DNA from: a bacterium
Lineage (GTDB): Bacteria; Patescibacteriota; Dojkabacteria; JAKAPS01; JAJZLI01
Reading direction: 5' to 3'
DNA: 33,016 bases
NCBI GenBank assembly: GCA_021816845.1
Contig: JAKAWT010000002.1
Span: 1-33,016, forward strand
Shown here: positions 3-33,016 of the stretch, piece by piece
Position numbering within the stretch: the stretch's first letter is position 1
Layout: the number at the start of each line of letters is the position of its first letter
Program-made: the position numbers and the translations under genes
Notes under the pieces: model-generated
The model's input: the letters and a program-made list of their open reading frames with translations, nothing else
What the model was told of the DNA's origin: nothing
The model's database searches: none

Positions 3-566
3 AATTCAAATACACCTGGAGTTTCTACTTTTACATATAACAACAATGGTACTAGTACCACATATCTAAAAGGTGAGATACTAATGTTAGTTAAGAATGA
101 GTACTATAACCCAGTGATATCTCAAGCCTCTGGTTTATCATCTCAGGATTTACAGGATATAGGTGGAAATATAACAATTACAAATAATTTAACAATTACA
201 AATAATTTAACTGTTGGAGGCAATATAACATCAAATGGTGGTATGCCAACTATTATATTAAATCCAAATTCAGGGATTGGTGCAAGTTCTACATTAAATT
301 CGGGATCGACTGATATTGCAGGGGTGTTAAATTTTGCAACAGGGGTAAAACCATTAAGTAGTGGAATTCAAATTACAGTTCAGTTTAAAACTCCATATAC
401 AGCAATACCTAGAGTCTTAGTTACACCTTCAAACCCTTTTACCGGGATAAATATGAATTTTCTTGGTATTTACTTAGTGGATACTACTAAAGGATTCAGT
501 ATAGATTTCTCAAAAGTTCCTCCTCCTTCAAGCCTATTTTCTTGGAATTATTTTATAATACAATAA
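3..566 (+). CDS. Fibre-like surface protein, 3' part (5' end outside window)
   Basis: The ORF track starts this at the ATG at 84, but the same frame stays open to base 3 (reading NSNTPGVSTFTYNNN before LKGEILM), so the true start probably lies upstream of the window. The visible part is rich in Asn, Thr, Gly and Ile and contains a short repeat, TITNNL twice, then NLTVGGNIT. This resembles the beta-repeat stalk of trimeric fibres or adhesins. The last 95 residues or so (from about STLNSGSTDIAG to the C-terminal FIIQ) look like one compact beta domain, loosely like H-type-lectin or tail-fibre tip domains; that comparison is by eye only. No membrane segment is visible in this part. I infer a cell-surface or appendage protein and do not recognise a named family. 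Confidence 0.6.
   Translation, partial: NSNTPGVSTFTYNNNGTSTTYLKGEILMLVKNEYYNPVISQASGLSSQDLQDIGGNITITNNLTITNNLTVGGNITSNGGMPTIILNPNSGIGASSTLNSGSTDIAGVLNFATGVKPLSSGIQITVQFKTPYTAIPRVLVTPSNPFTGINMNFLGIYLVDTTKGFSIDFSKVPPPSSLFSWNYFIIQ
174..209 (+). repeat. Perfect 18-bp tandem duplication inside the fibre-like gene
   Basis: The 18-mer ACAATTACAAATAATTTA occurs twice back to back, in frame, and encodes TITNNL-TITNNL. Being a multiple of three it keeps the reading frame, so copy number could vary without breaking the gene. This looks like recent slippage in a stalk repeat. Confidence 0.9.
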
Positions 567-6895: not shown

Positions 6896-6926
6896 TGTTA
6901 TAATTTTGGTATTTTTACTCTATAAT
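6896..6926 (+). promoter_or_regulatory. Two -10 elements before the tyrosine recombinase gene
   Basis: TGTTATAAT at 6896-6904 is a perfect extended -10, identical to that of yebC. A second perfect TATAAT at 6921-6926 ends 6 bases before the ATG at 6933, which predicts a leaderless transcript. Both lie in the 44-base gap after the reductase gene, so the recombinase probably has its own promoter. Confidence 0.5.
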
Positions 6927-6932
6927 GATTTT

Positions 6933-7910
6933 ATGGAGAAGAAAGATTTGTTGAGTGAAAAAGATAATTTTATACTAAATCTTTTAAATAATAATTATTC
7001 TAAAGAAACAATATATAACTATACTAGAGATCTTTCTTTGTTTGAAACATTCTTATCATTCAATAATTTTAGATTTAAGGATATAGATAAAAAAACTATT
7101 GTTCTTTTTAAAGATTTTTTACGTAGTGGTAAATATTTTGAAATTCTAAAAGATGATAGAAGTAAACTTCACAATTTTGCCAAAGATGATGTTGGTAAAT
7201 TATCCAGTAGATCTATTAATAGAATATTATCTTCTTTAAGATCATATCTGAAATACCTAATAGAATTTGATATAAAAACTCCTATAACTCCAGAAATGGT
7301 GAAGCTTATAAAGACAGAAAGAAAAGAATCTCAAGTAGCGGAAATGTCAGAACTTATAAGATTAATTGAATTCCCAAGTCTATATGAGAAAGATAAAATA
7401 GTAGGAGCAAGGAATAGAGCTATATTAGAACTTCTATTTTCTACAGGTATGAGAATATCTGAACTTGTATCTCTAAATAGAGAGCATATTAATGATGAAG
7501 GTAAAATTTATGTCATGGGTAAAGGAAAGAAACAAAGATTCGTATATTTAACCTCTAGAGCAATCAAATATATATTTGAGTATTTAAGTCTGAGAAATGA
7601 TGAATACCCTTCTCTTTTTGCACCTCTTAGGGGTGGAAGAAACGGCCATACAAATCAAAGAATATCGACCAATTATATACAGGATAGAATATCATTCTAC
7701 AGGAAGAAAATAGGGATTGTAGTACCTACTAGTGCCCACAGTTTAAGGCATGGATTTGCCACTTATCTTGCAGAAGAAGGTGCTAATCCTGCTGCTATAC
7801 AAATTCTTTTAGGACACGAATCATTACAAACAACTAATAAATATGTCCATGCTTCAGATAAATATGCAGAGGAAACACATAGGAAATTTCATCCCTTACA
7901 GAGCGTTTAA
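6933..7910 (+). CDS. Tyrosine site-specific recombinase, XerC/XerD-like
   Basis: 325 aa from the ATG at 6933 (the track uses a TTG at 6906). The N-terminal SAM-like DNA-binding domain reads YSKETIYNYTRDLSLFETFL. The catalytic domain has all the expected residues: Arg in TGMRISELVSL, Lys in GKGKKQRFV, His and Arg in HSLRHGFAT, His in LLGHESLQTTNKY, and the nucleophilic Tyr in TNKYVHAS. It probably resolves chromosome dimers; it is the only Xer-type gene here, so whether it acts alone or with a partner cannot be told. The N-terminal domain has a longer linker than classical XerC (about residues 68-95, RSGKYFEILKDDRSKLH). An integrase of a mobile element is the alternative, but the length and motifs fit Xer. 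It overlaps the next, convergent gene by 4 bases. Confidence 0.88.
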   Translation: MEKKDLLSEKDNFILNLLNNNYSKETIYNYTRDLSLFETFLSFNNFRFKDIDKKTIVLFKDFLRSGKYFEILKDDRSKLHNFAKDDVGKLSSRSINRILSSLRSYLKYLIEFDIKTPITPEMVKLIKTERKESQVAEMSELIRLIEFPSLYEKDKIVGARNRAILELLFSTGMRISELVSLNREHINDEGKIYVMGKGKKQRFVYLTSRAIKYIFEYLSLRNDEYPSLFAPLRGGRNGHTNQRISTNYIQDRISFYRKKIGIVVPTSAHSLRHGFATYLAEEGANPAAIQILLGHESLQTTNKYVHASDKYAEETHRKFHPLQSV

Positions 7911-19651: not shown

Positions 19652-20278
19652 ATGAATAGAATAAAACAATTAAATTCAAAAGGAATATGGAACCAAGGTT
19701 TTACTTTAGTTGAGCTTTTGATTGTTATGGCAATTATAGGTATATTAATTGCTATTGCAATTATAGGTCTTGGCGCAGCTCAGGCTGATGCAAGGAACTC
19801 TGCAAGACAGACAGCAGTTAAAGGGCTTTCTGGTTTACTAGAGACATATTATGGAACAGGGCAAACATATCCTTATTCTGTAGGTATGCAGACTAACGGG
19901 GATGTTGTCTTTGCTTCACCTTTCCCTGGTATTAATCCTTATGTTACAGACTCTAGCCTTTGTAGCCCAACAATAGTTCCTAACCAATCAACGTTAAGTA
20001 ATTCTGGTAGTGGATATTCTTGTACTGCAGTTAGTACAAATCCAGGATTTGGTTATACTAGTGGTACTTCAGGTAATAGTAATACTCATTATTTCTATAT
20101 ACCATTCCATAATGGATCAGTTGCCTTATCAAATGATCAAACTATTACTGGGTATGTAGTTGGAGCATGTTTAGAGAATGGAGGTATATTCCCTTACACT
20201 GCAAACGGTAGTAATTCTCCTTATTCTTTAAATAATAATACTTTAACATCAGGTACTGTAAGCCTTACATGCAACTAA
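19652..20278 (+). CDS. pilA: Type IV prepilin, probable major pilin
   Basis: 208 aa. A 16-residue leader ending in QG is followed by FTLVELLIVMAIIGILIAIAI, the class III signal: PilD should cut after the Gly and methylate the Phe, and Glu5 of the mature helix is present. The globular part is rich in Ser, Gly, Asn, Thr and Tyr and has four cysteines (LCSP, YSCTA, GACLEN, LTCN) that can make two disulfides. Of the four prepilins here it is the only one with its own promoter and terminator, which is why I call it the major pilin; the symbol is by role. Confidence 0.8.
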   Translation: MNRIKQLNSKGIWNQGFTLVELLIVMAIIGILIAIAIIGLGAAQADARNSARQTAVKGLSGLLETYYGTGQTYPYSVGMQTNGDVVFASPFPGINPYVTDSSLCSPTIVPNQSTLSNSGSGYSCTAVSTNPGFGYTSGTSGNSNTHYFYIPFHNGSVALSNDQTITGYVVGACLENGGIFPYTANGSNSPYSLNNNTLTSGTVSLTCN

Positions 20279-20308
20279 AAATCTGATAAAGTATTTACTA
20301 TAAATGAG

Positions 20309-20336
20309 GAACCTCTATAAAAAGAGGTTCTTTGTT
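20309..20336 (+). terminator. Terminator after the prepilin gene
   Basis: GAACCTCT (20309-20316) pairs perfectly with AGAGGTTC (20323-20330) around loop ATAAAA, followed by TTTGTTT. The 8-bp stem with GC pairs and the T-rich tail fit an intrinsic terminator ending pilA transcription before pilD. Confidence 0.75.
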
Positions 20337-20349
20337 TACTTATACTATT

Positions 20350-20358
20350 TGATATGAT
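20350..20358 (+). promoter_or_regulatory. Extended -10 upstream of pilD
   Basis: TGATATGAT (TGn plus TATGAT, five of six) lies 11 bases before the ATG at 20370, giving a predicted leader of about 5 nt. It restarts transcription after the pilA terminator for the minor-pilin operon. Confidence 0.4.
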
Positions 20359-20369
20359 ATCTTTTAAGT

Positions 20370-21188
20370 ATGTTGGTATTTATTATATACTTATTGATTT
20401 TTACATTCTTATTGGGAGCAGCTATAGGTAGTTTTATAAACGCATCTTGCTACAGGGTACATGAACATCTAAACATAAAAACAGGAAGATCTATGTGTCC
20501 TTTGTGTAAACATAAACTTTCTTTCTTCGATCTAATACCTATATTTAGTTTTATATTTCTTAAAGGTAAGTGTAGGTATTGTAAAGAAAAGATATCCTAT
20601 CAATACATAATTATTGAAGTTCTTACAGGTGTTATTTTTGTATTATATTTTTATTTTTTTGGTATCATACAGGTTTTATACCCTACTCCGCTTAATATAA
20701 TCCAATTGGTTTTCTATATATTTATAATAATATCATTTATATATATAGCTTTATATGATTTTTTATATCTAGAAATCTCAAATAAACTTATGGTTGTTAT
20801 CTCTGTGGTCACAGTTATTTACCTATTACTGTTATATTTTATGGGATTTACATCTATATCATATATTTTTATGCATATATATACTGCAGTTATTGTAGGA
20901 GCAGTATTTCTTCTTTTAATTATTATAACTCGTGGAAGTGGCATGGGAGGTGGTGACATGAAACTTGCTTTTGTTATGGGGTTAATATTAGGTTTCCCTT
21001 CAATACTATTTGTACTTTTCTTATCATTTGTTTTAGGAGCATTAGTTGGTATAACACTTATAATTACTAAAGCAAAGAGTTTAAAATCGACTATACCCTT
21101 TGCACCATTCTTAGCTTGTAGTATTATATTTTATATAATATTCAATCAGTATATATTACATTTTCTAAATTATTTTTATTTATTATAA
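20370..21188 (+). CDS. pilD: Prepilin peptidase/N-methyltransferase PilD
   Basis: 272 aa with about seven or eight membrane helices. The N-terminal methylase part has GSFINASCYRVHEH and the zinc tetracysteine CPLCKHKLSFFDLIPIFSF...CRYCKEKISYQY. The aspartyl peptidase part has the first catalytic Asp in ALYDFLYLEISNKL and the second in GMGGGDMKLAF (GxGD motif). It removes leaders from the four prepilins encoded here and methylates their first residue at the inner membrane. Its stop overlaps the next start by one base (TAATG). Confidence 0.95.
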   Translation: MLVFIIYLLIFTFLLGAAIGSFINASCYRVHEHLNIKTGRSMCPLCKHKLSFFDLIPIFSFIFLKGKCRYCKEKISYQYIIIEVLTGVIFVLYFYFFGIIQVLYPTPLNIIQLVFYIFIIISFIYIALYDFLYLEISNKLMVVISVVTVIYLLLLYFMGFTSISYIFMHIYTAVIVGAVFLLLIIITRGSGMGGGDMKLAFVMGLILGFPSILFVLFLSFVLGALVGITLIITKAKSLKSTIPFAPFLACSIIFYIIFNQYILHFLNYFYLL

Positions 21189-21961
21189 TGAATTTAGACA
21201 GTAAGAATAAAATAAACAGGATTAGGGGGTTTACTTTGATTGAGCTCCTAATTGTAATGGCTATTTCTGTTATATTAATAATGTTGGTATTATTTGGTAC
21301 AAAAGGACTCCAATCCCAGGCAGTATTATCAAGTTCTGTATCCAACTTTATCTCAAGACTAAGTTATATAAAAGAGGAAGCTGTATCCGGAGTTACATCT
21401 TTTTATCGTGAAAGTGTACCTATAGATCCTACAACAGGATTGAGTGAGAATTGGGTATATGGTTTTTATATAATACCGGCTACAAGTAGTACTAGTATAT
21501 GTACTACTAATTGTCCTGGATATGATGTTGTTATGGCAGTTAAAAATGTTCAACCACCATGTCAGGATCAAAATAGTAATAATTCTCCAACGTTTGATAA
21601 CTCAATTCCACCACAGAATAATTCGCTATATAATAATTACCCTTCAGGTGATACCTATAGTGGCTCTGTCACCCCCCTTAATAAGTGTCTAGGAGGAAGT
21701 ATTACTCCTTCAAATGCAACATATTATCATGCCTTGTCTCCAGGTGTTACAATGTCCTCTAATGGAAATTTTCCTTTATTTGAGGAAGTATCTGGTAATA
21801 TATATATATATTCTGAAAGTCATCCATATAGCATCATAAGTTCTCCTAGTACAGGTAGTAATGCCTCTTTTATAATGAAATATACTAATTCTTCTGATAC
21901 TGTTACTATATATGATACTTATAGTAGTAACGCAAATAGTGTAGTTCAGACAACACAGTAA
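21188..21961 (+). CDS. Minor prepilin 1 (GspH/FimT-like)
   Basis: 257 aa. Leader ends IRG, then FTLIELLIVMAISVILIMLVLFG, a full class III prepilin signal. The region SSSVSNFISRLSYIKEEAVSG resembles the helix after the membrane segment in GspH/FimT pseudopilins. The globular part is Ser/Asn/Pro-rich with four cysteines in the first two thirds (SICTTNCPG, PPCQD, NKCLGG). Minor pilins prime assembly or sit at the tip. It is coupled to pilD by a one-base overlap and followed 2 bases later by the next prepilin. Confidence 0.82.
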   Translation: MNLDSKNKINRIRGFTLIELLIVMAISVILIMLVLFGTKGLQSQAVLSSSVSNFISRLSYIKEEAVSGVTSFYRESVPIDPTTGLSENWVYGFYIIPATSSTSICTTNCPGYDVVMAVKNVQPPCQDQNSNNSPTFDNSIPPQNNSLYNNYPSGDTYSGSVTPLNKCLGGSITPSNATYYHALSPGVTMSSNGNFPLFEEVSGNIYIYSESHPYSIISSPSTGSNASFIMKYTNSSDTVTIYDTYSSNANSVVQTTQ

Positions 21962-21963
21962 AT

Positions 21964-22581
21964 ATGATTCAAAAGAGTCTTTTTAAATATATTAAATATT
22001 CAAATCCAGTTAATTTGGATTTATCAAATAATAAAAATCTGAATAAATCCAAGGGATTTACTCTAATAGAGACTCTGGTGGCTATGGTATTCATGTCTTT
22101 TATATTAATGGCGGTATTATATGCTGAATCACTTGCAATCCATCAGAGTTATCAAAATGAGGCTAGTATGGTTGCACAACAAGTATTGTCCTATGAAATG
22201 TCATATGCTCATGTGTGGGCTAATGAAGGAAATATATCATGGACTCAAAATGAAGGCATATCTTGTAGTGCCGCAAATTCTAACTCTCAGAATTGTCTAC
22301 ATATAGCAAATGCACTAAATGTTGTTGGTGCTACTGCAAATCAACTAGCTCTATTTAGTGAACCTCAAAATATGGAAATACTTTTATATTCTCAACCAAT
22401 AGGAGCCTCTTTGAGTTCATGTGATCAATCAACAATAATAGGATATGTGTTCTGGAATTTTAATAATGGGGGATCTTCACAGGCAATACCTGCATCCCTA
22501 CCTTGGATGGGAGGATATCCTAAGGGGAATTTTAATCAATATTTAAGTTCTACTAAGATTATTACTGGAAAGTCATGTTAA
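21964..22581 (+). CDS. Minor prepilin 2 (PilV/GspI-like)
   Basis: 205 aa. An unusually long leader (about 31 residues, Asn/Lys-rich) ends KSKG, followed by FTLIETLVAMVFMSFILMAVL; the Thr after Glu5 resembles PilV/GspI proteins. Cysteines at ISCSAAN, QNCLHI, SSCDQS and the C-terminal GKSC could form two disulfides. It ends inside the next gene (7-base overlap), consistent with coordinated expression of a tip complex. Confidence 0.82.
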   Translation: MIQKSLFKYIKYSNPVNLDLSNNKNLNKSKGFTLIETLVAMVFMSFILMAVLYAESLAIHQSYQNEASMVAQQVLSYEMSYAHVWANEGNISWTQNEGISCSAANSNSQNCLHIANALNVVGATANQLALFSEPQNMEILLYSQPIGASLSSCDQSTIIGYVFWNFNNGGSSQAIPASLPWMGGYPKGNFNQYLSSTKIITGKSC

Positions 22582-23234
22582 AGAATATAAAGCATAATAA
22601 GATAATTTGGTATATACGTAATATAAAAAGGGGTTTTACCTTAATAGAGCTATTAGTGGTGATGGCGATATTTTCTTTCCTAATTTTGGTATTAATGTCT
22701 TCTTTTACCAACACATATGCATACATAACAGATTTGAATACACAGTCTCATGTTGAGAATCAAATACAATATGCAATGAGTTATCTAAAAAAAATTATTA
22801 GGAATGGAGCTACTGTTAATCTTACTAATGTAAATTCAGGTATATGTAACCCTAATCCTCCCCAAGGATCTGTCATACTTTGTAGCTTATCAGGACCTCT
22901 TATAGTGAAGAACCAGCAAGGTCAGATTATTGCTACAATTGCTTTAAATACATCATCATCCTCTTTGGGACAGAAAATTGGAGGCTATATCACTTATAAC
23001 GGTAATAATGTAACAAATTCCAATAATATAGATATACAAGCTTTAAATTTTTACTACTATAACTATAACTATACTGGTACACCTCAAGGGTCAAATTCCA
23101 ATGTCTATATTGCCCCTTATGTAACTATTTTGATCAAAGGTTGTACTCTAAACACATTCCAATTCTATGGACAAAAAGTTTGCATGAATTTAATCTCTAG
23201 TGCAACTTTAGAAAATTACGTCTATTCCAATTAA
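22575..23234 (+). CDS. Minor prepilin 3 (PilW/GspJ-like)
   Basis: 219 aa. Leader ends IKRG, then FTLIELLVVMAIFSFLILVLMSSF. The following segment HVENQIQYAMSYLKKIIRNG resembles the post-helix region of PilW/GspJ proteins. Cysteines occur at GICNPN, ILCSLSG, KGCTLN and KVCMNL. Its start lies inside the preceding gene (7-base overlap). Together with the previous two it makes the usual H/I/J-like minor-pilin trio; a GspK/PilX partner is not obvious. Confidence 0.82.
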   Translation: MLKNIKHNKIIWYIRNIKRGFTLIELLVVMAIFSFLILVLMSSFTNTYAYITDLNTQSHVENQIQYAMSYLKKIIRNGATVNLTNVNSGICNPNPPQGSVILCSLSGPLIVKNQQGQIIATIALNTSSSSLGQKIGGYITYNGNNVTNSNNIDIQALNFYYYNYNYTGTPQGSNSNVYIAPYVTILIKGCTLNTFQFYGQKVCMNLISSATLENYVYSN

Positions 23235-23277
23235 ATCCTCTTGTTATATAAATATATTGCAATTTATAATAAATTTG

Positions 23278-23283
23278 TATAAT
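23278..23283 (+). promoter_or_regulatory. -10 upstream of the 631-aa surface protein gene
   Basis: TATAAT preceded by TTG ends 10 bases before the ATG at 23294, so the leader would be about 4 nt. The 59-base gap is the longest in the block from pilD to pilO, which supports a promoter here. Confidence 0.4.
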
Positions 23284-23293
23284 AATGATATAA

Positions 23294-25189
23294 ATGAAAG
23301 TTATTATTAAAGATAGTTTTAAAACTGTTCTGCTTGTGCTTGTGGTTTTACTTGGTATCTTTTTGTATGCCAAGTCTAGCGTAAAACCAGTATTAGCTTG
23401 GACAGGTCCATACGTGAATTGTTATTATACTAATGTTGTAGAAAATTCAACAATCTATAATGGTCAAATAAATGTCTCCTTGTCCCCAGTTGGATATGGT
23501 AATTCATACAATGTTTCTGTTTCTGGTTCTGGACCTTATCATAAAGACTATTATACTGATTATGAGTGTAATTATACTTATTATGCAAGTTGTATCCAAT
23601 ACAGTACAACATATCCATATGGTTGTATACAGTATGATACCCCTCCAGCGGACTACACAACAAATACATCAGTTTATGTTTTTGATAAAAATGTATACGA
23701 TGTCACTGGTAGTGCAAATCTATCAGAAACTTCTAATCAACCCACATATCTTAATGGTTTAATAGCGAACACTTCTGTATCCTGTTCAGGTTCTAGTTTT
23801 AATACACAAGTTAATACTGTATCTGTAAATAACACTAAAGTTTTCAATTATAATAATGTTTCTCCAGATCCAGGAAAGCAATTGTCACCTGTGACTTTAA
23901 CAGCAACTTTATCTTCTGGACAATATTGTAATACTGGTGGTCCTGCGACAGCTACTATGAATTTAAGAGAAGGACCTTTTATACTATCTTTGTCTCCAGA
24001 CTCGTCTCTTCCTTTTAATACAGAGCAATATGGTGGTAATCCAGATGGTACAATAATATATACTTTAAGTACAAGTTGTAATAATGGTAATCTACAGTGT
24101 TCTAATTCTAGTAGATATGTATCTTGGAATATTACTACGAATCAACCGTGGCTTTATTTATGGGATGGTAAAGTATCTAGTGGGCAGACATCTGTTACAG
24201 TATATTGTATAAATCCAACAGATAAAACGAGTACAAGTACTAGTTTGTATTTATATTGTGATAATTCCAGTCCAGATACACCTATAAATAATCATTTATG
24301 GACAAGAGCAGCTAATACTCAAAATATGCCTTCTGGCTCAGGATCTTCTGCTTATCATGCTCAAGTTGTAGTTACCCCATCTTCCTTCGCTCAGGCTAAT
24401 AATCCAGCTCCTGTGACACTTAACATTTATGCTTCTTGGTTATCAACTGCCAATGGAGGTAATGCTTATTCAAGAGGAGGTTTTAATATTACTACGCCAC
24501 CTAGTCCAGCTACTCCTGCAGATAAGATCTTTACGGACGCTTTATTAGAGACTTTAGGCGGTGGGCTAAATTTTGAAAATGGTACTCCAGTATCATATGC
24601 TTCTTTAGAATATGTAAACCAAAAGTTAGGTCTGACCAACAATGGTACCCCGATATATGATTTTAACTTTTATGCAACATTGTATTGTGAAATTACTGGA
24701 AAATGTCAAAATGCTTTTTCAAATGGTGTTATACAGATAAGTAAGATTCCTCAAAATCAGGCAAATTTGGGCAGCTTACAATCGATGACTCAATCAAATC
24801 CAAATTGGTATTTTTATCAAGGTGATTTAAATATTTCCCAAAATACCATATATACAGGTAGCGCAGTTTTGATTGTTAATGGTAATGTTACAATTAACCC
24901 TTCACTATATCCACAAACTGCAGCTTGTACTATAGCCGATTCATCTCCTCTAACTAATGTTCAATTATGTCCAGGGCTTGTAATCATTTCAAGTGGGAAT
25001 ATAGAGATAACCAGCAATACTCCATCACAAGCATTTTCTTATGATAGAGACCTTGATGCAAATACAAATGCTGATGTCGAAAACACAGGCAATGTTACAG
25101 AACCAGGTGGTGGGTTGACTACAGTTTCTCCATATGATGTAGTGGACGCATTCTTAATCTCAATGGGAAAAATAGTAATAGATAATTAA
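23294..25189 (+). CDS. Large exported cysteine-containing protein, candidate pilus tip or surface protein
   Basis: 631 aa. The N-terminus MKVIIKDSFKTVLLVLVVLLGIFLYA is a signal peptide or anchor, not a class III prepilin signal. The rest is Ser/Thr/Asn/Tyr/Gly-rich with 14 cysteines, several in close pairs (YECNY...YASC, SCNNGNLQC, YCEITGKC), suggesting disulfide-stabilised beta domains. A stretch near residues 275-315 (SWNITTNQPWLYLWDGKVSS) loosely resembles BACON-type Ig domains. The C-terminal 120 residues (SAVLIVNGNVTINPSLYP, then GLVIISSGNIEITSN and DAFLISMGKIVIDN) look like repeating beta strands. Position between the minor prepilins and pilMNO suggests a tip adhesin with a PilY1-like job, but no PilY1 homology is visible. 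Confidence 0.6.
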   Translation: MKVIIKDSFKTVLLVLVVLLGIFLYAKSSVKPVLAWTGPYVNCYYTNVVENSTIYNGQINVSLSPVGYGNSYNVSVSGSGPYHKDYYTDYECNYTYYASCIQYSTTYPYGCIQYDTPPADYTTNTSVYVFDKNVYDVTGSANLSETSNQPTYLNGLIANTSVSCSGSSFNTQVNTVSVNNTKVFNYNNVSPDPGKQLSPVTLTATLSSGQYCNTGGPATATMNLREGPFILSLSPDSSLPFNTEQYGGNPDGTIIYTLSTSCNNGNLQCSNSSRYVSWNITTNQPWLYLWDGKVSSGQTSVTVYCINPTDKTSTSTSLYLYCDNSSPDTPINNHLWTRAANTQNMPSGSGSSAYHAQVVVTPSSFAQANNPAPVTLNIYASWLSTANGGNAYSRGGFNITTPPSPATPADKIFTDALLETLGGGLNFENGTPVSYASLEYVNQKLGLTNNGTPIYDFNFYATLYCEITGKCQNAFSNGVIQISKIPQNQANLGSLQSMTQSNPNWYFYQGDLNISQNTIYTGSAVLIVNGNVTINPSLYPQTAACTIADSSPLTNVQLCPGLVIISSGNIEITSNTPSQAFSYDRDLDANTNADVENTGNVTEPGGGLTTVSPYDVVDAFLISMGKIVIDN

Positions 25190-25191
25190 TT

Positions 25192-25578
25192 ATGGATAAA
25201 AGAAAGATCCTTGTTGTAGAAGATGAGGTTTACTTAGTTGAGTTATATACAGAGATATTACAGAAAGCTGGATATCAAGTATCATCTGCTTATACAGGAG
25301 ATGAAGGTATTAAACTAGCAGAGCAAGAAAAATTTGATCTTATCTTGCTTGACCTTATGCTTCCTAGTGGTACCATTAATGGAACATATTTTTTGCATCT
25401 TGTAAAAACAGATACTGAGAAATATCATAATCCACTGGTTGTAGTATTGACCAATCTCACTAGTGAGGTTATAGTAAAAGATATATTCTCACAAAAAGCT
25501 GATGGATTTTTGATGAAAACTGAGCTTACACCAGAACAGATTGTTAAAGAGGTAGCAAATTATTTAAATAAATCATAA
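25192..25578 (+). CDS. Single-domain response regulator (REC)
   Basis: 128 aa, a stand-alone CheY/PilG-like receiver with no output domain. Acidic pocket VVEDE (Glu10, Asp11), phospho-acceptor Asp54 in ILLDLMLP, Thr in VVLTNLT, and Lys in FLMKTELTP are all present. It starts 2 bases after the surface-protein gene and ends 4 bases before pilM, so it belongs to the pilus operon. No histidine kinase is encoded in the window. It probably tunes pilus activity through protein contact, as PilG/PilH do elsewhere; that is inference. Confidence 0.92.
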   Translation: MDKRKILVVEDEVYLVELYTEILQKAGYQVSSAYTGDEGIKLAEQEKFDLILLDLMLPSGTINGTYFLHLVKTDTEKYHNPLVVVLTNLTSEVIVKDIFSQKADGFLMKTELTPEQIVKEVANYLNKS

Positions 25579-25582
25579 AATT

Positions 25583-26632
25583 ATGTTTGGTAAAAAGAAA
25601 GAAAATTTGAATTCATTTGCTGTAGATTTTGGAGCTCATACAATAAAGGTTGTGAGATTAAAGGATGTAGATAAAAATCCTGCTCTAGTTACTTTTGGAT
25701 CAATAGAAACTCCATATGGGGTCTTGGGGAGTGAAAATGAAGACCATAAAAGAACACTCGCTGAATCTTTGAAATCACTAGTGCATGATTTGGGTATACA
25801 AACTACTAATGCCTCAATATCTTTACCTGATAGTTCAATATTTTCAAAAGTAATAAGAATACCAGCACAAAAGGAAGCTGATTTGGAAGAAGCAGTATTT
25901 TGGGCTACCAAAAAAAACATACCAATATCGCCAGATGAAGTTCAAGTTGATTGGTCTATTGTTAATAAATTAGAAACATCAAGTGATGGTGTTACTCAGT
26001 ATGATGTTTTACTTGTTGCGGCACCTAAGCTTCTTATAAATAGATACGTTGATATTCTAAAACTTGCAGGGTTTACACCTGTTTTAATAGAGACTGAATC
26101 ACTATCTTTAGTTAGGAGTCTTTCATATAAGAATGATACTTCACCAAGTCTTATTATGGATTTTGGTTATAATGGTATAGAGACGGTTGTAGCATATAAG
26201 GAAACATTACTCTTTCCTCAGACAATAGCAATTGGATCTTCAGTGCTTACTAAAGCTATCGCTCAGGGGTTTAATCTAGAAGAGGTACAAGCTGAAGAAT
26301 ACAAAAAGAGCTACGGTCTTGATCCAGCACAATTAGAGGGAAAGATATATAGAACTTTGCTCCCTATAATGGAGTCTATCGTTAATGAGATAAGAAGAAC
26401 ATTTAACGCTTATAAAGCTACTAATATATCAGATACTCCTACTAAAATAATACTTGTCGGTAATGGCTCCATGCTTCCAGGACTTGTTTTGTATCTAGCA
26501 CAAAACTTAAATATGGAAGTTGAGGTTGGGAATCCTTATTCAAAAATATATATGGATCCTTCGTTAAAGAATAAACTCCCTGCCCCACTACCTGGATATG
26601 CAGTTGCTTTAGGATTAGCATTAAAAGTATAA
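25583..26632 (+). CDS. pilM: Type IV pilus assembly protein PilM
   Basis: 349 aa actin-like ATPase. The N-terminal FAVDFGAHTIKVVRL is the phosphate-1 motif of PilM, followed by SISLPDSSIFSKVIRIPAQ and VFWATKKNIPISPDEVQVDW. MDFGYNGIETVV is the second phosphate-binding motif, and ILVGNGSMLPGL is the adenosine motif. PilM forms a cytoplasmic ring bound to the N-terminus of PilN. A 3-base gap leads into pilN. Confidence 0.95.
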   Translation: MFGKKKENLNSFAVDFGAHTIKVVRLKDVDKNPALVTFGSIETPYGVLGSENEDHKRTLAESLKSLVHDLGIQTTNASISLPDSSIFSKVIRIPAQKEADLEEAVFWATKKNIPISPDEVQVDWSIVNKLETSSDGVTQYDVLLVAAPKLLINRYVDILKLAGFTPVLIETESLSLVRSLSYKNDTSPSLIMDFGYNGIETVVAYKETLLFPQTIAIGSSVLTKAIAQGFNLEEVQAEEYKKSYGLDPAQLEGKIYRTLLPIMESIVNEIRRTFNAYKATNISDTPTKIILVGNGSMLPGLVLYLAQNLNMEVEVGNPYSKIYMDPSLKNKLPAPLPGYAVALGLALKV

Positions 26633-26635
26633 AAT

Positions 26636-27220
26636 ATGAAAACAGGAATAAATTTAATTCCAAGAAAAACAAAGGAAGAATTAGTAAAGGAATCTAGAAT
26701 GTATACCCTAGAGATTGTTGCTGCTATAGTTATTATAATAGCAGAAGTAGCATCTGTGTTTATTGTGGGTATGGCCAAGACAGCAAAAAAAAATGAAATA
26801 TTTGCTCAAAATGTATACAATAAGGATAAAAAGAACTTACAATCCTTTTCTAATACTATTAATACTATTAATAATATTAATCAAAGATATAATAATATTA
26901 ATAGTATTATCAACACTTTTAACAATCCTGTTACTGTACTTAGTAGATTTGAAGCTTTAGTCCCAGGAAATATATCTTTGTCGAATTTTCTTTATGTATA
27001 TAACGGGAGTATCACATTTAACTGTTCAGGAGCAAATGTTCTAGATGTAGCCCACTTGATACATAATTTTTCTTCAAATAATAAAAATAATAAATATTTT
27101 GTAAATACTCAGATAAAATCAGTTCAAATTACCTATGATAGTAACAACCAAGTACAATCTGTGAAGTTTAATATAACAACGACCTATCATAATAATAATT
27201 CAATTAGTGGAGCAACATAA
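26636..27220 (+). CDS. pilN: Type IV pilus assembly protein PilN
   Basis: 194 aa. MKTGINLIPRKTKEE contains the INLIP motif that binds PilM, then one membrane helix (IVAAIVIIIAEVASVFIVGM), a coiled-coil-like Asn/Ile-rich stretch (NTINTINNINQRYNNINSII) and a small periplasm-side domain. The coiled-coil stretch is encoded by near-repeats of AATACTATT. It overlaps pilO by one base (TAATG). Confidence 0.9.
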   Translation: MKTGINLIPRKTKEELVKESRMYTLEIVAAIVIIIAEVASVFIVGMAKTAKKNEIFAQNVYNKDKKNLQSFSNTINTINNINQRYNNINSIINTFNNPVTVLSRFEALVPGNISLSNFLYVYNGSITFNCSGANVLDVAHLIHNFSSNNKNNKYFVNTQIKSVQITYDSNNQVQSVKFNITTTYHNNNSISGAT

Positions 27221-27918
27221 TGATGAATAATAATATAGATAGAACTAAATTGATAAGATTTGCCAAATTATATACTATACCTATTCTAGCAGTAATATTG
27301 GTTATAATAGCTGTATTCTTTGTTATTTGGCCTAGTTATAATTCTATAAAACAGTATAATAATGAAACACAATCATACAATTCACAAAATCAGAGCATGA
27401 ATACTGCGATCCAATCATTAAAGAATTACTCTTCTAAGTCACAAATTACTCAAATAGACAAGTATCTAGCCTCACTAAATCAAATAATACAATCTAATTT
27501 ACAGTTTTCGATAACTTCTGGTGAAGTACAGTCATTAGGGCTTGCCTCGGGTTTACAATTCAATACCTTATCTAGTGGACAACAACCAGCATCATTTAAT
27601 CAACAAATATCAATACCTGGTGTATCTCCAAGCCTGACTCCAAATAATGTGTTCGTATCATTTGTTGGCACCATATCTCAGATTGATAATTATATAAATA
27701 CTTTAGAAAAACAAAAAACTTTATTTGTTATATCAAGTATAGAATATTCTGGGTCTCTTATGGGATCTACTCAGTTACAAGGACAATCCGGTGGTAATGA
27801 TACCTTAAATATAGAAGTAGTCTTTTTTTCTATGCCTGATTCTAAGAATATTTTGTACCAGGGAGGACTTGTTAATAGTGCAGCTTTAGAAAAGTTAATC
27901 TCAAGTAGGAATGGTTAA
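27220..27918 (+). CDS. pilO: Type IV pilus assembly protein PilO
   Basis: 232 aa. A short cytoplasmic N-terminus, one membrane helix ([19 protein letters not shown]), a coiled coil rich in Gln/Asn/Ser (about 50-95), then a ferredoxin-like domain ([22 protein letters not shown]) fit PilO, the PilN partner. Two adjacent ATGs are possible starts. No pilP or pilQ follows, so the alignment complex ends at the membrane. The gene stops on the same TTAA as the convergent rpsP. Confidence 0.88.
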
Positions 27919-28136
27919 ATTTTTAATAATTTCTTAACAATATCTGTTGGTTGAGCACCTCTAGATAACCAGTTTTGTAGTTTCTCTTTATCAAATTCAA
28001 GTTTTTTAAGTATAGGTTCATAGTACCCTATTTTCTCTATATACTTGCCATCTCTTTTAGAGACAGAGTCAGCAACTATAATTCTATAGCTTGCATGATG
28101 TTTTTTACCTGTTCTTGTAAGTCTAATTTTTACCAT
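27915..28136 (-). CDS. rpsP: 30S ribosomal protein bS16
   Basis: 73 aa. [24 protein letters not shown] is diagnostic, followed by [14 protein letters not shown] and the C-terminal [19 protein letters not shown]. It assembles with the 5' domain of 16S rRNA. It overlaps the end of rnc by 14 bases, which suggests coupled translation, and is the last gene of the operon. Confidence 0.97.
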
Positions 28137-28800
28137 ATAATTTATCTATGACCTTTTTAGCTGCTTCATCTTCAGCTTCTTGTTTACTTTTACCAGTACC
28201 TATTTCCATAGGATCCTTATTTATATAAACTTGTACTGTAAACACCCTACTATGTGCAGGGCCTTCCTCTTTTATAATTTTATACCTAGGTATCGGCTTG
28301 TGTTCAGACTGTAACCTTTCTTGCAGATAAGACTTATTACTTATATAACTCTTATTCTCAATTATATCATTCAATACGAAGTATAAGTGAGTATACAGAA
28401 ATTGTTCTGTATATTCAAGTCCCTTATCTAAATAAATTGCACCTATTAAGGCTTCAAATGTATCTTCAAGAATCTTAGATCTTTCTCTTCCTCCAGAGTC
28501 TGCTTCACCCTTAGCTAATTGTAGATATTCTCCAATACCCATATCTGAGGCTATTTTTGATAGTGTTTTGGTCTGTACCATTGATGACCTATATGTCGTT
28601 AGAATACCTTCTTTTTCATTTTTAAACCTAAAAAATAAATATTTTGATACTAGAAGCTCAATGACAGCATCACCCAAGAATTCCAATCGTTCATTGTTGT
28701 CAGTTGTCATTGATCTATGTGTAAGAGCAATTTTTAATAACTCTTTGTTCTTCATGTTTAAGTTTAATTTTTTATCTAACTCCTCAATATTTTTGTTCAT
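28123..28800 (-). CDS. rnc: Ribonuclease III
   Basis: 225 aa double-strand RNA endonuclease that processes rRNA precursors. The signature [17 protein letters not shown] lies near residues 36-52, with the second acidic cluster in [17 protein letters not shown] near 115-131. A C-terminal dsRBD ends with the typical [21 protein letters not shown]. It sits 3 bases after nusB. Pairing with nusB, rpmF and rpsP in one operon couples rRNA transcription, processing and ribosomal proteins. Confidence 0.97.
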
Positions 28801-28803
28801 TTT

Positions 28804-29208
28804 TTATTTCATCAAATTACCTAATACTCCACTAACAAATTTATCACTAGATTTATCACCGAAATCTTTGGCTATCTCAATAGCTTCATCAATAGATACT
28901 TTTGGAGGGGTTATTTTTCCTACAAATCCCTCATATACAGCAATCCTTAATATTTGCATATCGAGTGTATTTATTTTTGAGAATGGTCTATCCAAGCTTG
29001 CCTTCTTAATTATCTCATATATTTTATCATTATTATCAGATACACCATTGATTAAAGTTTTAAATAGTTTTTTATTAAAACTACTATTTTTATCTATTTT
29101 GGATATATCGGAACTTGAAAAAACTGTAGACTTTGAAAATACACCATTAAAAAGTGTCTGAACTGCTATTATTCTTGATAAATGCCTAGGATCTTCTTTT
29201 GACTTCAT
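28804..29208 (-). CDS. nusB: Transcription antitermination factor NusB
   Basis: 134 aa all-helical protein. SRIIAVQTLFNGVFSK is the N-terminal RNA-binding region, NTLDMQILRIAVYEG the characteristic central motif, and KVSIDEAIEIAKDFGDKSSDKFVSGVLGNL the C-terminal signature. NusB with S10 binds boxA in rRNA leaders to prevent termination. It starts 2 bases after rpmF. Confidence 0.96.
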   Translation of the reverse strand: MKSKEDPRHLSRIIAVQTLFNGVFSKSTVFSSSDISKIDKNSSFNKKLFKTLINGVSDNNDKIYEIIKKASLDRPFSKINTLDMQILRIAVYEGFVGKITPPKVSIDEAIEIAKDFGDKSSDKFVSGVLGNLMK

Positions 29209-29210
29209 TA

Positions 29211-29387
29211 CTATATAGGGAGTACTGACTTCCCTTTGTACTTACCACAATTTGTACATGCATTATGCATCAATACAGGTGCCTTACAATCTGGGCATAC
29301 TCCCAAATTGGGCAATTTTAATGCATCATGTGATCTTCTGTTGTTCTTTCTTCTGTGAGAAATTCTTCTTTTTGGTACTGCAGACAT
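29211..29387 (-). CDS. rpmF: 50S ribosomal protein bL32
   Basis: 58 aa from the ATG at 29387: MSAVPKRRISHRRKNNRRSH is the usual bL32 start, and Cys31-x2-Cys34 with Cys44-x2-Cys47 form the zinc ribbon (the zinc-binding rather than the zinc-free type). The track ORF extends 12 codons upstream through the promoter, so I reject that start. A perfect -35/-10 pair places transcription start at the ATG. Confidence 0.97.
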   Translation of the reverse strand: MSAVPKRRISHRRKNNRRSHDALKLPNLGVCPDCKAPVLMHNACTNCGKYKGKSVLPI

Positions 29388-29393
29388 GAGGTT

Positions 29394-29423
29394 ATTATAT
29401 AATGTAGGGTCTTTTAATGTCAA
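29394..29423 (-). promoter_or_regulatory. Consensus sigma-70-type promoter for leaderless rpmF mRNA
   Basis: On the minus strand TTGACA (29423-29418) and TATAAT (29399-29394) are both perfect and separated by 18 bp. The -10 ends 6 bases before the rpmF ATG, so the usual start point (about 7 bases after the -10) is the A of the ATG. The -35 contains the TGA stop of rsmD. Confidence 0.8.
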
Positions 29424-29998
29424 TTTTTATTTTGTTTTTTATAAAAAACGAGACCTATATTACCATAGTGCCTTGTTTCTATAATTTCAAACCCCTTAAC
29501 CTTTTCAATATCTCTTTTAGCCTCTTTTTCAAAGATTACGATTCCATCATTACTAAGTACCCTACTCGCCTCTCTTATTATTTTTGTATCTGTTATTTCA
29601 TATGGTTGGAATATAAAGATAATATCAAATAATTTATAATTCCTTGGATTTTGATTATTGGAACCTTGATTCTTCATGTTTCTTAAATATATTTGAGCTG
29701 GCATGGTCAAAACTTCTGCCTTTTCTTCTAATTTAGTCTTTTTTAAGTTCTCTTTTATAACTGCAGTTACTGTCCTTTCTATATCAACGAATTCAGCGTA
29801 TAAAGCACCTCTGGATAATGCTTCTATTCCTAGTGCTCCAGATCCAGCATAAAGGTCAAGAACTATTGATCCTGGTATTATAGGTGTAATTATAGAGAAT
29901 AATGCCGACTTTGCTCTTGATGACAATGGCCTTGTATATTTCGTGACAAATTTTAAATTGGTTTTTTTTGCACTCCCTGCTATTACTTTTAAATTCAT
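29420..29998 (-). CDS. rsmD: RsmD-like 16S rRNA guanine-N2 methyltransferase with altered catalytic motif
   Basis: 192 aa. LKVIAGSAKKTNLKFV and RPLSSRAKSALFSII match the RsmD N-terminus, and IVLDLYAGSGALGIEALSRGA is the SAM-binding motif I with its family extension. Normal RsmD methylates G966 of 16S rRNA using a (D/N)PP(Y/F) motif after FDIxFx; here that position reads FDIIFIFQPYEI, so the catalytic Asp and first Pro are replaced by Phe and Gln. The rest of the fold looks intact. Start is 2 bases after the recG stop. The family is clear; activity is in doubt. Confidence 0.88.
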   Translation of the reverse strand: MNLKVIAGSAKKTNLKFVTKYTRPLSSRAKSALFSIITPIIPGSIVLDLYAGSGALGIEALSRGALYAEFVDIERTVTAVIKENLKKTKLEEKAEVLTMPAQIYLRNMKNQGSNNQNPRNYKLFDIIFIFQPYEITDTKIIREASRVLSNDGIVIFEKEAKRDIEKVKGFEIIETRHYGNIGLVFYKKQNKN

Positions 29999-30000
29999 AA

Positions 30001-31986
30001 TTAATTAATTTGTAATATTTTATCCTGTGCTTCTCTTAGTTTAGATTTTAACTTAGGATAATTATCTAAATTTGTAATGATATCTAAAACTGCATCTTTT
30101 GTCATCTTTATAAGGTCTACATCTATTAATGATGCCATTTTTAAATCTGGTTCCCCCGATTGATGTACACCATATATCTCTCCAGGCCCTCTTTTTTTAA
30201 GGTCAAATTCTGCAAGTTCTAAACCATTATTATTCTTTTTGAAAAACTCTAACCTTTCATTGTATCCCTTATTACTAAATAGTAAACAATATGATTTTTT
30301 AGTAGATCTACCTATTCTGCCTCTTAATTGATGGAGTTGTGCAAGACCATATCTGTCAGCATCTTCTATAAGGATTATTGTTGCACCTTTTATATCTATA
30401 CCTACCTCTATTACTGGAGTTGAGACTAATATATCGTAATCGCCATTTGAAAAATCTTTCAATACTCTATCCTTATTTTTCAGTTTTCCATGTAACAACG
30501 CTACTCTTAAATCTTTAAAAATCTCATTTTTCAACATTTTGTATTCTGCTTCTACATTTTTAAGTTGTAATTTTTCAGATTCAGTAATTAGAGGACATAA
30601 TATAAATGCTTGTTCCCCATTGGAGACTCTTTCTCTTATAAAATTGTATGCGTCATACCTTTTTTGATCACTGACTATGTATGTTTTAACATCAATTCTT
30701 CCTTTTGGCTTTTCATCAAGTATAGATATATCCAGATCACCATATATTCCTAAAGCTAGAGTTCTTGGAATTGGCGTTGCTGTCATTGTTAGTATGTGAG
30801 GATCAATACCTTTAGATATTAAATTTTCTCTTTGTCTTACACCAAAACGATGTTGTTCATCTATTATAATAAGGCCTAACTTTTTGAAGATAGCTTTATC
30901 TTGTAGTAATGCTTGTGTACCTATGAATACAGAGGCTGAAGTATCTATTTTGTTTGATTTGGATGTAACTATTTCTACTTTCACACCTTTATTTTCAAGA
31001 TAATTTTTAAAAGAGTGATAATGTTGTTCAGCTAAAATAGATGTAGGAACCATGATTGCAGTTTGAAGGTTATTCAAATACATAGTATATGTTGCAATTA
31101 CAGCAACAATTGTTTTTCCAGTTCCTACATCGCCTTCCAGTAACCTATTCATAGGAATTCCTCTTTTTATATCTGTATATATTTCATTAATACTCCTCCT
31201 TTGAGAGTTTGTTAATGTGAAATTGAGACTAGATATAAAATCTTGTATCTTTTCTTCATCAATCGATATTTTATATGCGGATCTCCTTTCTCTTTCTCGT
31301 TTTCTCATATATGAAATTATCTGTATATATAATATCTCTTCAAAACCTAACCTTTTTTTAGCTTCCTTTATATCATCATAACTATTTGGAAAATGTAATT
31401 TAAAAAGAGCGTCTTTAATTGTTATAAGATTGTATTTTTCTCTTATATTAAAAGGTAGATAATCATCTTCTATATTAAAATTTGATAATAAGGTTTTTAT
31501 TCTTGATCTTAACCATTTCGAGGTAATCCCTTTGGTCTGACTGTATATGGGAGTTATTCTACCAAAATGTACTGTTTCATTATTTTTCAATACCTCAAAT
31601 TTAGGAGATATAAATATGAATCTACCCTTTTTTATATCAGTTTTTCCTATAATAATAACCTCGTCTCCTATTTTAATATTATTGATTATATATTTTTGAT
31701 TAAACCATATAATATCAGCAGTTCCAGTTAAATCCTCTATTTCTGCAGTAGTAATATTTTTTCTTGATCTTGTATAAACACTCTTTATATTATTTATCTT
31801 ACCTTTAACAATATTTATGTTTTTTGTCTCTATATTCACTATATCTCTTATATCCCTTGAGTCTTCATATTTGATTGGATAGTAGTATAGAAGATCCCTA
31901 AGTGTGAATATACCTAATTTTTTCAGTAGTTCTGAATATTTCGTACCTATATAGTAGGCATGAGACACAGGATCATCTAATTGCAT
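30001..31986 (-). CDS. recG: ATP-dependent DNA helicase RecG
   Basis: 661 aa. An N-terminal wedge/OB region (LGIFTLRDLLYYYPIKYED, then EIEDLTGTADIIWFNQKYI) binds branched DNA. Helicase motifs follow: EGDVGTGKT (I), IIDEQHRFGVRQR (II), MTATPIPRTLAL (III), STPVIEVGIDI (V), and DADRYGLAQLHQLRGRIGRS (VI), with the RecG C-terminal segment FDLKKRGPGEIYGVHQSG. It regresses stalled forks and complements the RuvABC set at the left of the window. It starts 2 bases after a 37-aa smORF. Confidence 0.97.
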   Translation of the reverse strand: MQLDDPVSHAYYIGTKYSELLKKLGIFTLRDLLYYYPIKYEDSRDIRDIVNIETKNINIVKGKINNIKSVYTRSRKNITTAEIEDLTGTADIIWFNQKYIINNIKIGDEVIIIGKTDIKKGRFIFISPKFEVLKNNETVHFGRITPIYSQTKGITSKWLRSRIKTLLSNFNIEDDYLPFNIREKYNLITIKDALFKLHFPNSYDDIKEAKKRLGFEEILYIQIISYMRKRERERRSAYKISIDEEKIQDFISSLNFTLTNSQRRSINEIYTDIKRGIPMNRLLEGDVGTGKTIVAVIATYTMYLNNLQTAIMVPTSILAEQHYHSFKNYLENKGVKVEIVTSKSNKIDTSASVFIGTQALLQDKAIFKKLGLIIIDEQHRFGVRQRENLISKGIDPHILTMTATPIPRTLALGIYGDLDISILDEKPKGRIDVKTYIVSDQKRYDAYNFIRERVSNGEQAFILCPLITESEKLQLKNVEAEYKMLKNEIFKDLRVALLHGKLKNKDRVLKDFSNGDYDILVSTPVIEVGIDIKGATIILIEDADRYGLAQLHQLRGRIGRSTKKSYCLLFSNKGYNERLEFFKKNNNGLELAEFDLKKRGPGEIYGVHQSGEPDLKMASLIDVDLIKMTKDAVLDIITNLDNYPKLKSKLREAQDKILQIN

Positions 31987-31988
31987 AA

Positions 31989-32102
31989 TTATTGATTATA
32001 GATTGCAAGCAATGTTGATAGTAGTAGGGCTATTATAGTAAGTCCCATTATTACAACAAATATCTTTTTTTCATGTTTTTGAAAGAAGTTTCTTCTAGCC
32101 AT
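31989..32102 (-). CDS. Conserved-context small membrane protein (37 aa)
   Basis: Not in the ORF track because of length. It reads MARRNFFQKHEKK, then a single hydrophobic helix IFVVIMGLTIIALLLSTLLA, then IYNQ and TAA. The basic N-terminus and one helix fit a small inner-membrane protein with the N-terminus inside. Its ATG lies exactly 2 bases after the tyrS stop and its stop exactly 2 bases before the recG ATG, the spacing seen between other genes of this operon, which strongly supports translation. Function unknown. Confidence 0.75.
   Translation of the reverse strand: MARRNFFQKHEKKIFVVIMGLTIIALLLSTLLAIYNQ
31995..32000 (-). promoter_or_regulatory. Possible internal -10 before recG
   Basis: TATAAT on the minus strand ends 8 bases before the recG ATG. 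It lies inside the 37-aa smORF and may be chance in AT-rich DNA, but its distance matches the leaderless pattern of other genes here. Confidence 0.25.
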
Positions 32103-32104
32103 TC

Positions 32105-33016
32105 TTATTTAATCTTTACTAAATTTCTTTTACCTGTCTTTACAATCATACCAGATTTTATATTAATTTCTAAATTCATATCACTTATTTTTATATTATC
32201 TATATATACTCCTCCACTCTTTATCAACCTTTTAGCATCTGCTCTTGAAGGAATTTGTCCAGTTAATGATGTTATAAGATCAAGTATTCTTGCTTTCTTT
32301 ACATCTATTTCAACTAGTATTAGGTCATCAGATACAATCTGCCTATCTTGAACTGTTTTTTTAAAATACCTTTCCGCTCCAATTGCATCTTTTTTTGTTG
32401 AATACATTTTAGTTATTTCATATGCTAATATTTTTTTTATATCCATAATTCCCGAACTTGTAGAATTATTGAGATCTTTTTCTATTTCTTTGATATTATC
32501 ATTACTTATTCTTGTTGCTATATTAAAATATTCTATAATTACGCTGTCCCTTACACTCATAACTTGACCATATATATCATTTGCTTTATCCGTTATATTT
32601 ATCACATTTCCCCAAGATGAGGACATTTTTCTTCCATCAGTCCCTGGTAGAAGTTTTTTGGTTAAACATACCTGTTTCTTCATATTAAAATATCCTTGTA
32701 TTTCTCGACCTGCCAGTATATTAAATAGTTGATCAGAACCTCCTAATTCTACATCTGATTTTATAGCTACAGAGTCATAACCTTGCATGATTGGGTATAA
32801 GAACTCATGTAGTCCTATAGGTCTATGATTCTTATATCTATCTATAAAATTTTCTCTTTCAATAAGCTGAGCTACCGTAAAATGTTTAGATATATCAAGA
32901 ATATCAGAAAAATTAAATTTTTCTAACCATTCTGAATTATATCTATATTCAACTTTGGATAAATCTAAAATCTTTGCTAGCTGAGCTTTATAAGTTTTAA
33001 AATTTTCTTTTATCTC
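32105..33016 (-). CDS. tyrS: Tyrosyl-tRNA synthetase, C-terminal part (5' end outside window)
   Basis: The track shows only the part from an internal ATG at 32788, but the frame is open to the window edge at 33016, giving 303 codons visible. FTVAQLIERENFIDRY and GLHEFLYPIMQGYDSV precede the tyrosine-binding signature DVELGGSDQLFNILAGRE. The KMSKS loop is present as GRKMSSSWGN, and a C-terminal S4 domain (SRADAKRLIKSGGVYIDN) binds the tRNA. The HIGH motif should lie beyond the edge. It is upstream of the smORF and recG in one operon. Confidence 0.95.
   Translation of the reverse strand, partial: EIKENFKTYKAQLAKILDLSKVEYRYNSEWLEKFNFSDILDISKHFTVAQLIERENFIDRYKNHRPIGLHEFLYPIMQGYDSVAIKSDVELGGSDQLFNILAGREIQGYFNMKKQVCLTKKLLPGTDGRKMSSSWGNVINITDKANDIYGQVMSVRDSVIIEYFNIATRISNDNIKEIEKDLNNSTSSGIMDIKKILAYEITKMYSTKKDAIGAERYFKKTVQDRQIVSDDLILVEIDVKKARILDLITSLTGQIPSRADAKRLIKSGGVYIDNIKISDMNLEINIKSGMIVKTGKRNLVKIK

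Follow-up and report, generated by a model that had tools for sequence, protein, structure and literature searches.

The window (the whole stretch of DNA analysed, 33,016 nt) comes from a 769-kb genome of the Dojkabacteria (WS6, CPR/Patescibacteria) that is 95% complete, lies in two contigs and has 30% G+C. The class assignment follows from rpmF relatives in the same class, of which the named ones are Candidatus Dojkabacteria (WS6). The minus strand carries, in order, recG, rsmD, rpmF, nusB, rnc and rpsP. The rpmF product matches the ribosomal protein bL32 profile TIGR01031 with E=3.4e-21 (75.2 bits, cut-off 22.6). The features around its start are these, with the basis of each in brackets:

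29420..29998, minus strand: rsmD, upstream of the rpmF promoter, its stop inside the -35 hexamer (profile match)
29424..29446, minus strand: A-rich stretch directly upstream of the -35 hexamer (sequence reading only)
29418..29423, minus strand: -35 hexamer TTGACA (sequence and promoter scan)
18 nt between -35 and -10, minus strand: spacer TTAAAAGACCCTACATTA (sequence)
29394..29399, minus strand: -10 hexamer TATAAT (sequence and promoter scan)
29388..29393, minus strand: discriminator AACCTC, 6 nt, between the -10 and the ATG (sequence)
29387-29385, minus strand: rpmF start codon ATG (sequence and homologue alignment)
29387, minus strand: predicted transcription start, the A of the rpmF ATG, with C at -1 and A at +1 (inferred from the -10 position and the genome-wide edge at gap 6)
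29211..29387, minus strand: rpmF, ribosomal protein bL32, 58 aa (NCBIfam TIGR01031)
28804..29208, minus strand: nusB, following rpmF as second gene of its likely operon, no clear Shine–Dalgarno (SD) sequence (profile match)
28123..28800, minus strand: rnc (RNase III), third gene, no clear SD sequence (profile match)
27915..28136, minus strand: rpsP (bS16), fourth gene (profile match)

How far does the influence of this promoter extend? The gap between rpmF and nusB is 2 nt, that between nusB and rnc is 3 nt, and rnc and rpsP overlap by 14 nt. Since the four genes are so tightly packed, the promoter before rpmF most likely drives them all. Beyond them, the ends of rpsP and of a plus-strand type IV pilus pilO-like gene converge and overlap by 4 nt (27915-27918). 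At the other end of the array, a TATAAT with a weak -35 ends 8–9 nt before the ATG of recG (minus strand, window 31986), and the upstream operon with recG may also be near-leaderless. A similar arrangement occurs in an integrase-like ORF on the plus strand (6906-6933). It was listed with a TTG start at 6906, and a TATAAT lies 6 nt before the ATG at 6933; this leaderless signal suggests that the ATG is the true start.

The earlier note described an exact TTGACA–18–TATAAT promoter placed 6 nt from the bL32 ATG, and this description is correct (minus strand, 29423-29387). The site matches the consensus at 12/12 positions and is the only one to do so in the scan of 20000-33016, where the runner-up reached 10/12. 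Its -35 hexamer overlaps the TGA stop of rsmD (29422-29420), and the A-rich stretch beyond could be an UP element. With TTGACA, a spacer in the 16–18-nt range and TATAAT, the promoter is of the sigma-70 type, and sigma factor genes are present: sigma-70 region 2 (Sigma70_r2) has four matches in the genome. Three of these ORFs lie within about 2 kb of one another (contig C2, 186502-188620), a cluster that looks unusual for a 0.77-Mb genome; the fourth is at C2 239418-239621. No SD sequence precedes the rpmF ATG, where AACCTC stands instead, and no known RNA element from Rfam was matched in the window.

Is this ATG indeed the start of rpmF? Nearly all of 29 relatives have the ATG and the bL32 N-terminus (M-S/A/G-A-x-P-K-R/K; MSAVPKRR here) at the same place in the alignment, with no extension ahead of it, and we therefore place the start at 29387. 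An in-frame TTG at 29423 was rejected, the homologues having no extension to match it.

A perfect promoter is by itself only mildly unusual in this genome; there are six 12/12 sites with 16–18-nt spacers, where an order-1 model predicts 2.7. Chance would not be expected to place one exactly 6 nt before a start; with the threshold relaxed to 9/12, a promoter match at a given gap from a random ATG still has a probability of about 0.3%.

If the position before rpmF is not accidental, how are promoters placed elsewhere in the genome? After reassembling the genome sequence from 20-kb pieces, we ran a hexamer-based gene finder, which yielded 765 genes, and examined every distance from the ATG starts for promoter-like sites (a -10 matching at 5/6 positions or better, and 9/12 or better overall). 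Among 387 transcription-unit heads the counts at gaps 4, 5, 6, 7, 8, 9, 10 and 11 were 6, 3, 29, 19, 8, 14, 10 and 3, where a control on every ATG in the genome gave 1.3 expected per gap. Gaps 6–10 together held 80 matches versus 6.6 expected. The modal gap is 6 and the lower edge is sharp (3 at gap 5 versus 29 at gap 6), as expected if a start codon cannot precede the transcription start. No such peak at gaps 6–10 was seen before operon-internal genes (8 matches, 328 genes), and the same pipeline found a promoter at these gaps in 0/96 genes of 200 kb of E. coli. All 79 candidate leaderless genes, a few of which may be miscalled since their starts come from a simple finder, begin with ATG.

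The bases before these starts behave accordingly at two positions. Upstream of leadered starts the clearest feature is an A at -3. This A is found in 16/73 of the gap 6–10 genes versus 143/283 before other starts (p=1e-5), a loss to be expected if the base at -3 is not transcribed; in five relatives pooled, the difference runs in the same direction, short of significance (p=0.07). Transcription usually prefers to start at a pyrimidine followed by A, and a pyrimidine stands at -1 in 26/29 gap-6 genes (p=0.02).

A second, broad class of promoters (102 matches) lies 21–40 nt upstream of the ATG. Over the whole genome the promoter-to-ATG distances are thus bimodal, at 6–10 and 21–40 with few at 11–20, suggesting avoidance of very short leaders of roughly 5–14 nt.

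Is the leaderless class confined to this genome? Of six genomes studied in detail, five show the gap 6–10 excess clearly and the sixth (G009) weakly, if at all; two relatives with N-masked blocks were left out of the genome-wide analysis. Orthologues in this genome and in G005, from the same family, tend to have the same promoter class (8/11 vs 3/14, p=0.017). Against G028, from another family, the leaderless class has mostly turned over, with 2 genes kept and 6 leadered. Counts of the pattern TTGNNA-17/18-TATAAT-6..9-ATG are 10.4 per genome in the family (1.4 for the reversed control) and 2.8 per genome in 109 Patescibacteria from other classes (0.35 for the control). Enrichment of the leaderless position thus reaches outside the class, and the counts peak in this family, whose genomes are also AT-rich.

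For rpmF itself, all six same-family genomes that carry the gene retain an exact TATAAT and an 18-nt spacer. The gaps from -10 to ATG are 9, 9, 9, 9, 8 and 7 nt, compared with 6 in this genome, and the -35 is exact TTGACA in three of the six, while the remaining ones have TTGACT or TTTGCA. At 23 other loci of the class, the best promoter-like site is usually 26–37 nt upstream of the ATG; one of these loci (L008) has an additional, weaker close match at gap 8. The earlier note had proposed to judge the promoter by whether relatives conserve the distance of 6, and by whether their hexamers are lost or displaced. The position near the ATG is conserved throughout the family, and the exact gap of 6 is not; with a family range of 6–9, it is discarded as a conserved feature. 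The -10 hexamer is likewise kept in all six relatives and the exact -35 in three of them, and outside the family the best site is usually displaced. A predicted promoter before rpmF is general in the class. Because it mostly lies farther upstream outside the family, a leaderless or near-leaderless rpmF (0–3 nt) is, as read from these alignments, a lineage-specific family trait.

What role might be played by SD pairing in such a genome? The 3' end of the 16S rRNA keeps an intact anti-SD, GAATCACCTCCTTT, so that the weak use of SD pairing cannot be put down to a lost or altered anti-SD. Nor have bS1, bS21 or IF3 been lost: bS21 and IF3 are matched in the genome and an S1-domain protein is present, taken as bS1 from an ORF with four S1 domains. 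SD-like 4-mers nevertheless precede only 6.6% of transcription-unit heads and 12.7% of operon-internal genes, slightly more than in shuffled sequence (z of 3 and 5, respectively), and in five relatives of the class their frequency is at or near chance. In the same pipeline, SD motifs precede 48–55% of E. coli genes. The claim that the bL32 case would be informative about how this organism initiates translation is supported by the genome-wide peak at gap 6 and by the scarcity of SD motifs, which point to a general habit.

We consider it very likely that the rpmF operon is expressed without a leader from a near-ideal housekeeping-sigma promoter, as one of roughly 70–80 such genes. RpmF would head an rpmF-nusB-rnc-rpsP operon, with transcription predicted to begin on the A of rpmF's own AUG. 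A -10 element that ends about 6–7 nt ahead of a start codon puts the transcription start on that codon, and the one here ends 6 nt ahead. With the start point on that A, bL32 would be translated from a leaderless mRNA, presumably by direct recognition of the 5'-terminal AUG without SD pairing. The downstream genes nusB, rnc and rpsP would most likely be reached by translational coupling. In the genome as a whole, many transcription-unit heads would be translated from leaderless messages and the remaining genes mostly by non-SD initiation. The earlier proposal of a leaderless bL32 mRNA thus stands as a prediction, backed by the -10 position, family conservation and the genome-wide spacing class.

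Might the promoter be real and its start lie slightly elsewhere, leaving a near-leaderless mRNA with a leader of 1–4 nt? Polymerase can start 1–2 nt to either side of the predicted point. The gaps of 7–9 nt in the family relatives, allowing room for a leader of 1–3 nt, favour such an offset, as does the spread of the genome-wide class over gaps 6–10. Against it stand the modal gap of 6 with its sharp lower edge (29 vs 3), and the excess of pyrimidines at -1 in gap-6 genes, which fits the pyrimidine-then-A preference. We regard an offset as unlikely, and functionally it may amount to the same mechanism. It is considerably less probable that rpmF is expressed mainly by read-through from recG-rsmD, with reinitiation 33 nt past the rsmD stop and only a minor part for the promoter match. 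Although the end of the co-oriented rsmD lies some 33 nt before rpmF and no terminator was found in between, almost all of 30 class members have a promoter-like site ahead of rpmF, in several of them an exact one, and there is no SD sequence to serve an internal start at rpmF. Transcripts passing through rsmD may additionally contribute to rpmF.

Least credible, to the point of near-dismissal, is that the match is an accident of a 30% G+C genome in which TATAAT-like words often fall near starts. TATAAT does occur 2774 times, and the tally of perfect sites given above, six for an expected 2.7, leaves room for accident. That reading is already contradicted by the controls, the all-ATG figure comparing with 29 and 19 at gaps 6 and 7 (P <1e-50), and by retention of the site in six relatives. 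We conclude that leaderless expression of rpmF is the best explanation of the whole.

CPR bacteria make up a very large, almost uncultured share of bacterial diversity and have reduced ribosomes; to our knowledge, translation initiation in them has been little studied. We see an even chance that in the Dojkabacteria, and perhaps widely across the CPR/Patescibacteria, translation starts largely in leaderless and other non-SD fashion despite an intact anti-SD, bS1, bS21 and IF3, genes such as rpmF switching between leaderless and leadered (about 20–30 nt) as lineages diverge. If a leaderless class and a near-absence of SD sequences do characterize the Dojkabacteria, then start-codon annotation, promoter prediction and attempts at expressing genes in them would all be affected. 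The occurrence of rpmF in leadered and leaderless form within one class offers a clean case for the gene-by-gene evolution of initiation mode.

How does this compare with known systems? Leaderless genes are established in a wide range of bacteria (PMC3160421, PMC9581028); Actinobacteria, Deinococcus and archaea are familiar examples of groups that have them. For Dojkabacteria or CPR we found no description of them in the literature searched, which was mostly without subscription papers and so is weak evidence of absence; searches pairing leaderless with CPR, Patescibacteria, Parcubacteria or Saccharibacteria gave incidental mentions only. Zheng et al. (2011, PMC3160421) surveyed 953 bacterial genomes, and CPR/Dojkabacteria are not named among the groups for which they list leaderless genes. 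There, such genes are marked by a TA-like (-10) signal some 10 bp upstream of the start, which in low-G+C genomes takes the form of TATAAT with informative middle positions. The rpmF gene resembles these, with TATAAT just before its start codon. In that survey translation genes (COG J) are leaderless less often; here, in contrast, bL32 belongs to the leaderless class, as do bS20 and bL25 by short N-terminal matches. GeneMarkS-2 predicts leaderless transcription in genomes such as that of Mycobacterium tuberculosis (PMC9581028). The present genome shares with these a mixture of leaderless and leadered genes, and a promoter signal that replaces the ribosome-binding site before the former. The example clade there, Actinobacteria, is mostly high in G+C, whereas this genome has 30% G+C and barely uses SD sequences. 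A study of 14 bacterial phyla, with no mention of candidate phyla in its text, described non-SD initiation in Bacteroidetes and similar phyla (Nakagawa et al. 2017, PMC5397173). The few SD motifs and the biased bases around the start are alike in the two cases; unlike those phyla, this genome has a distinct gap-6 promoter class beside the class 21–40 nt upstream. Leaderless genes are a known kind, and what makes the present case worthwhile is the host lineage together with the combination of low G+C, scarce SD sequences and a leaderless ribosomal protein operon.
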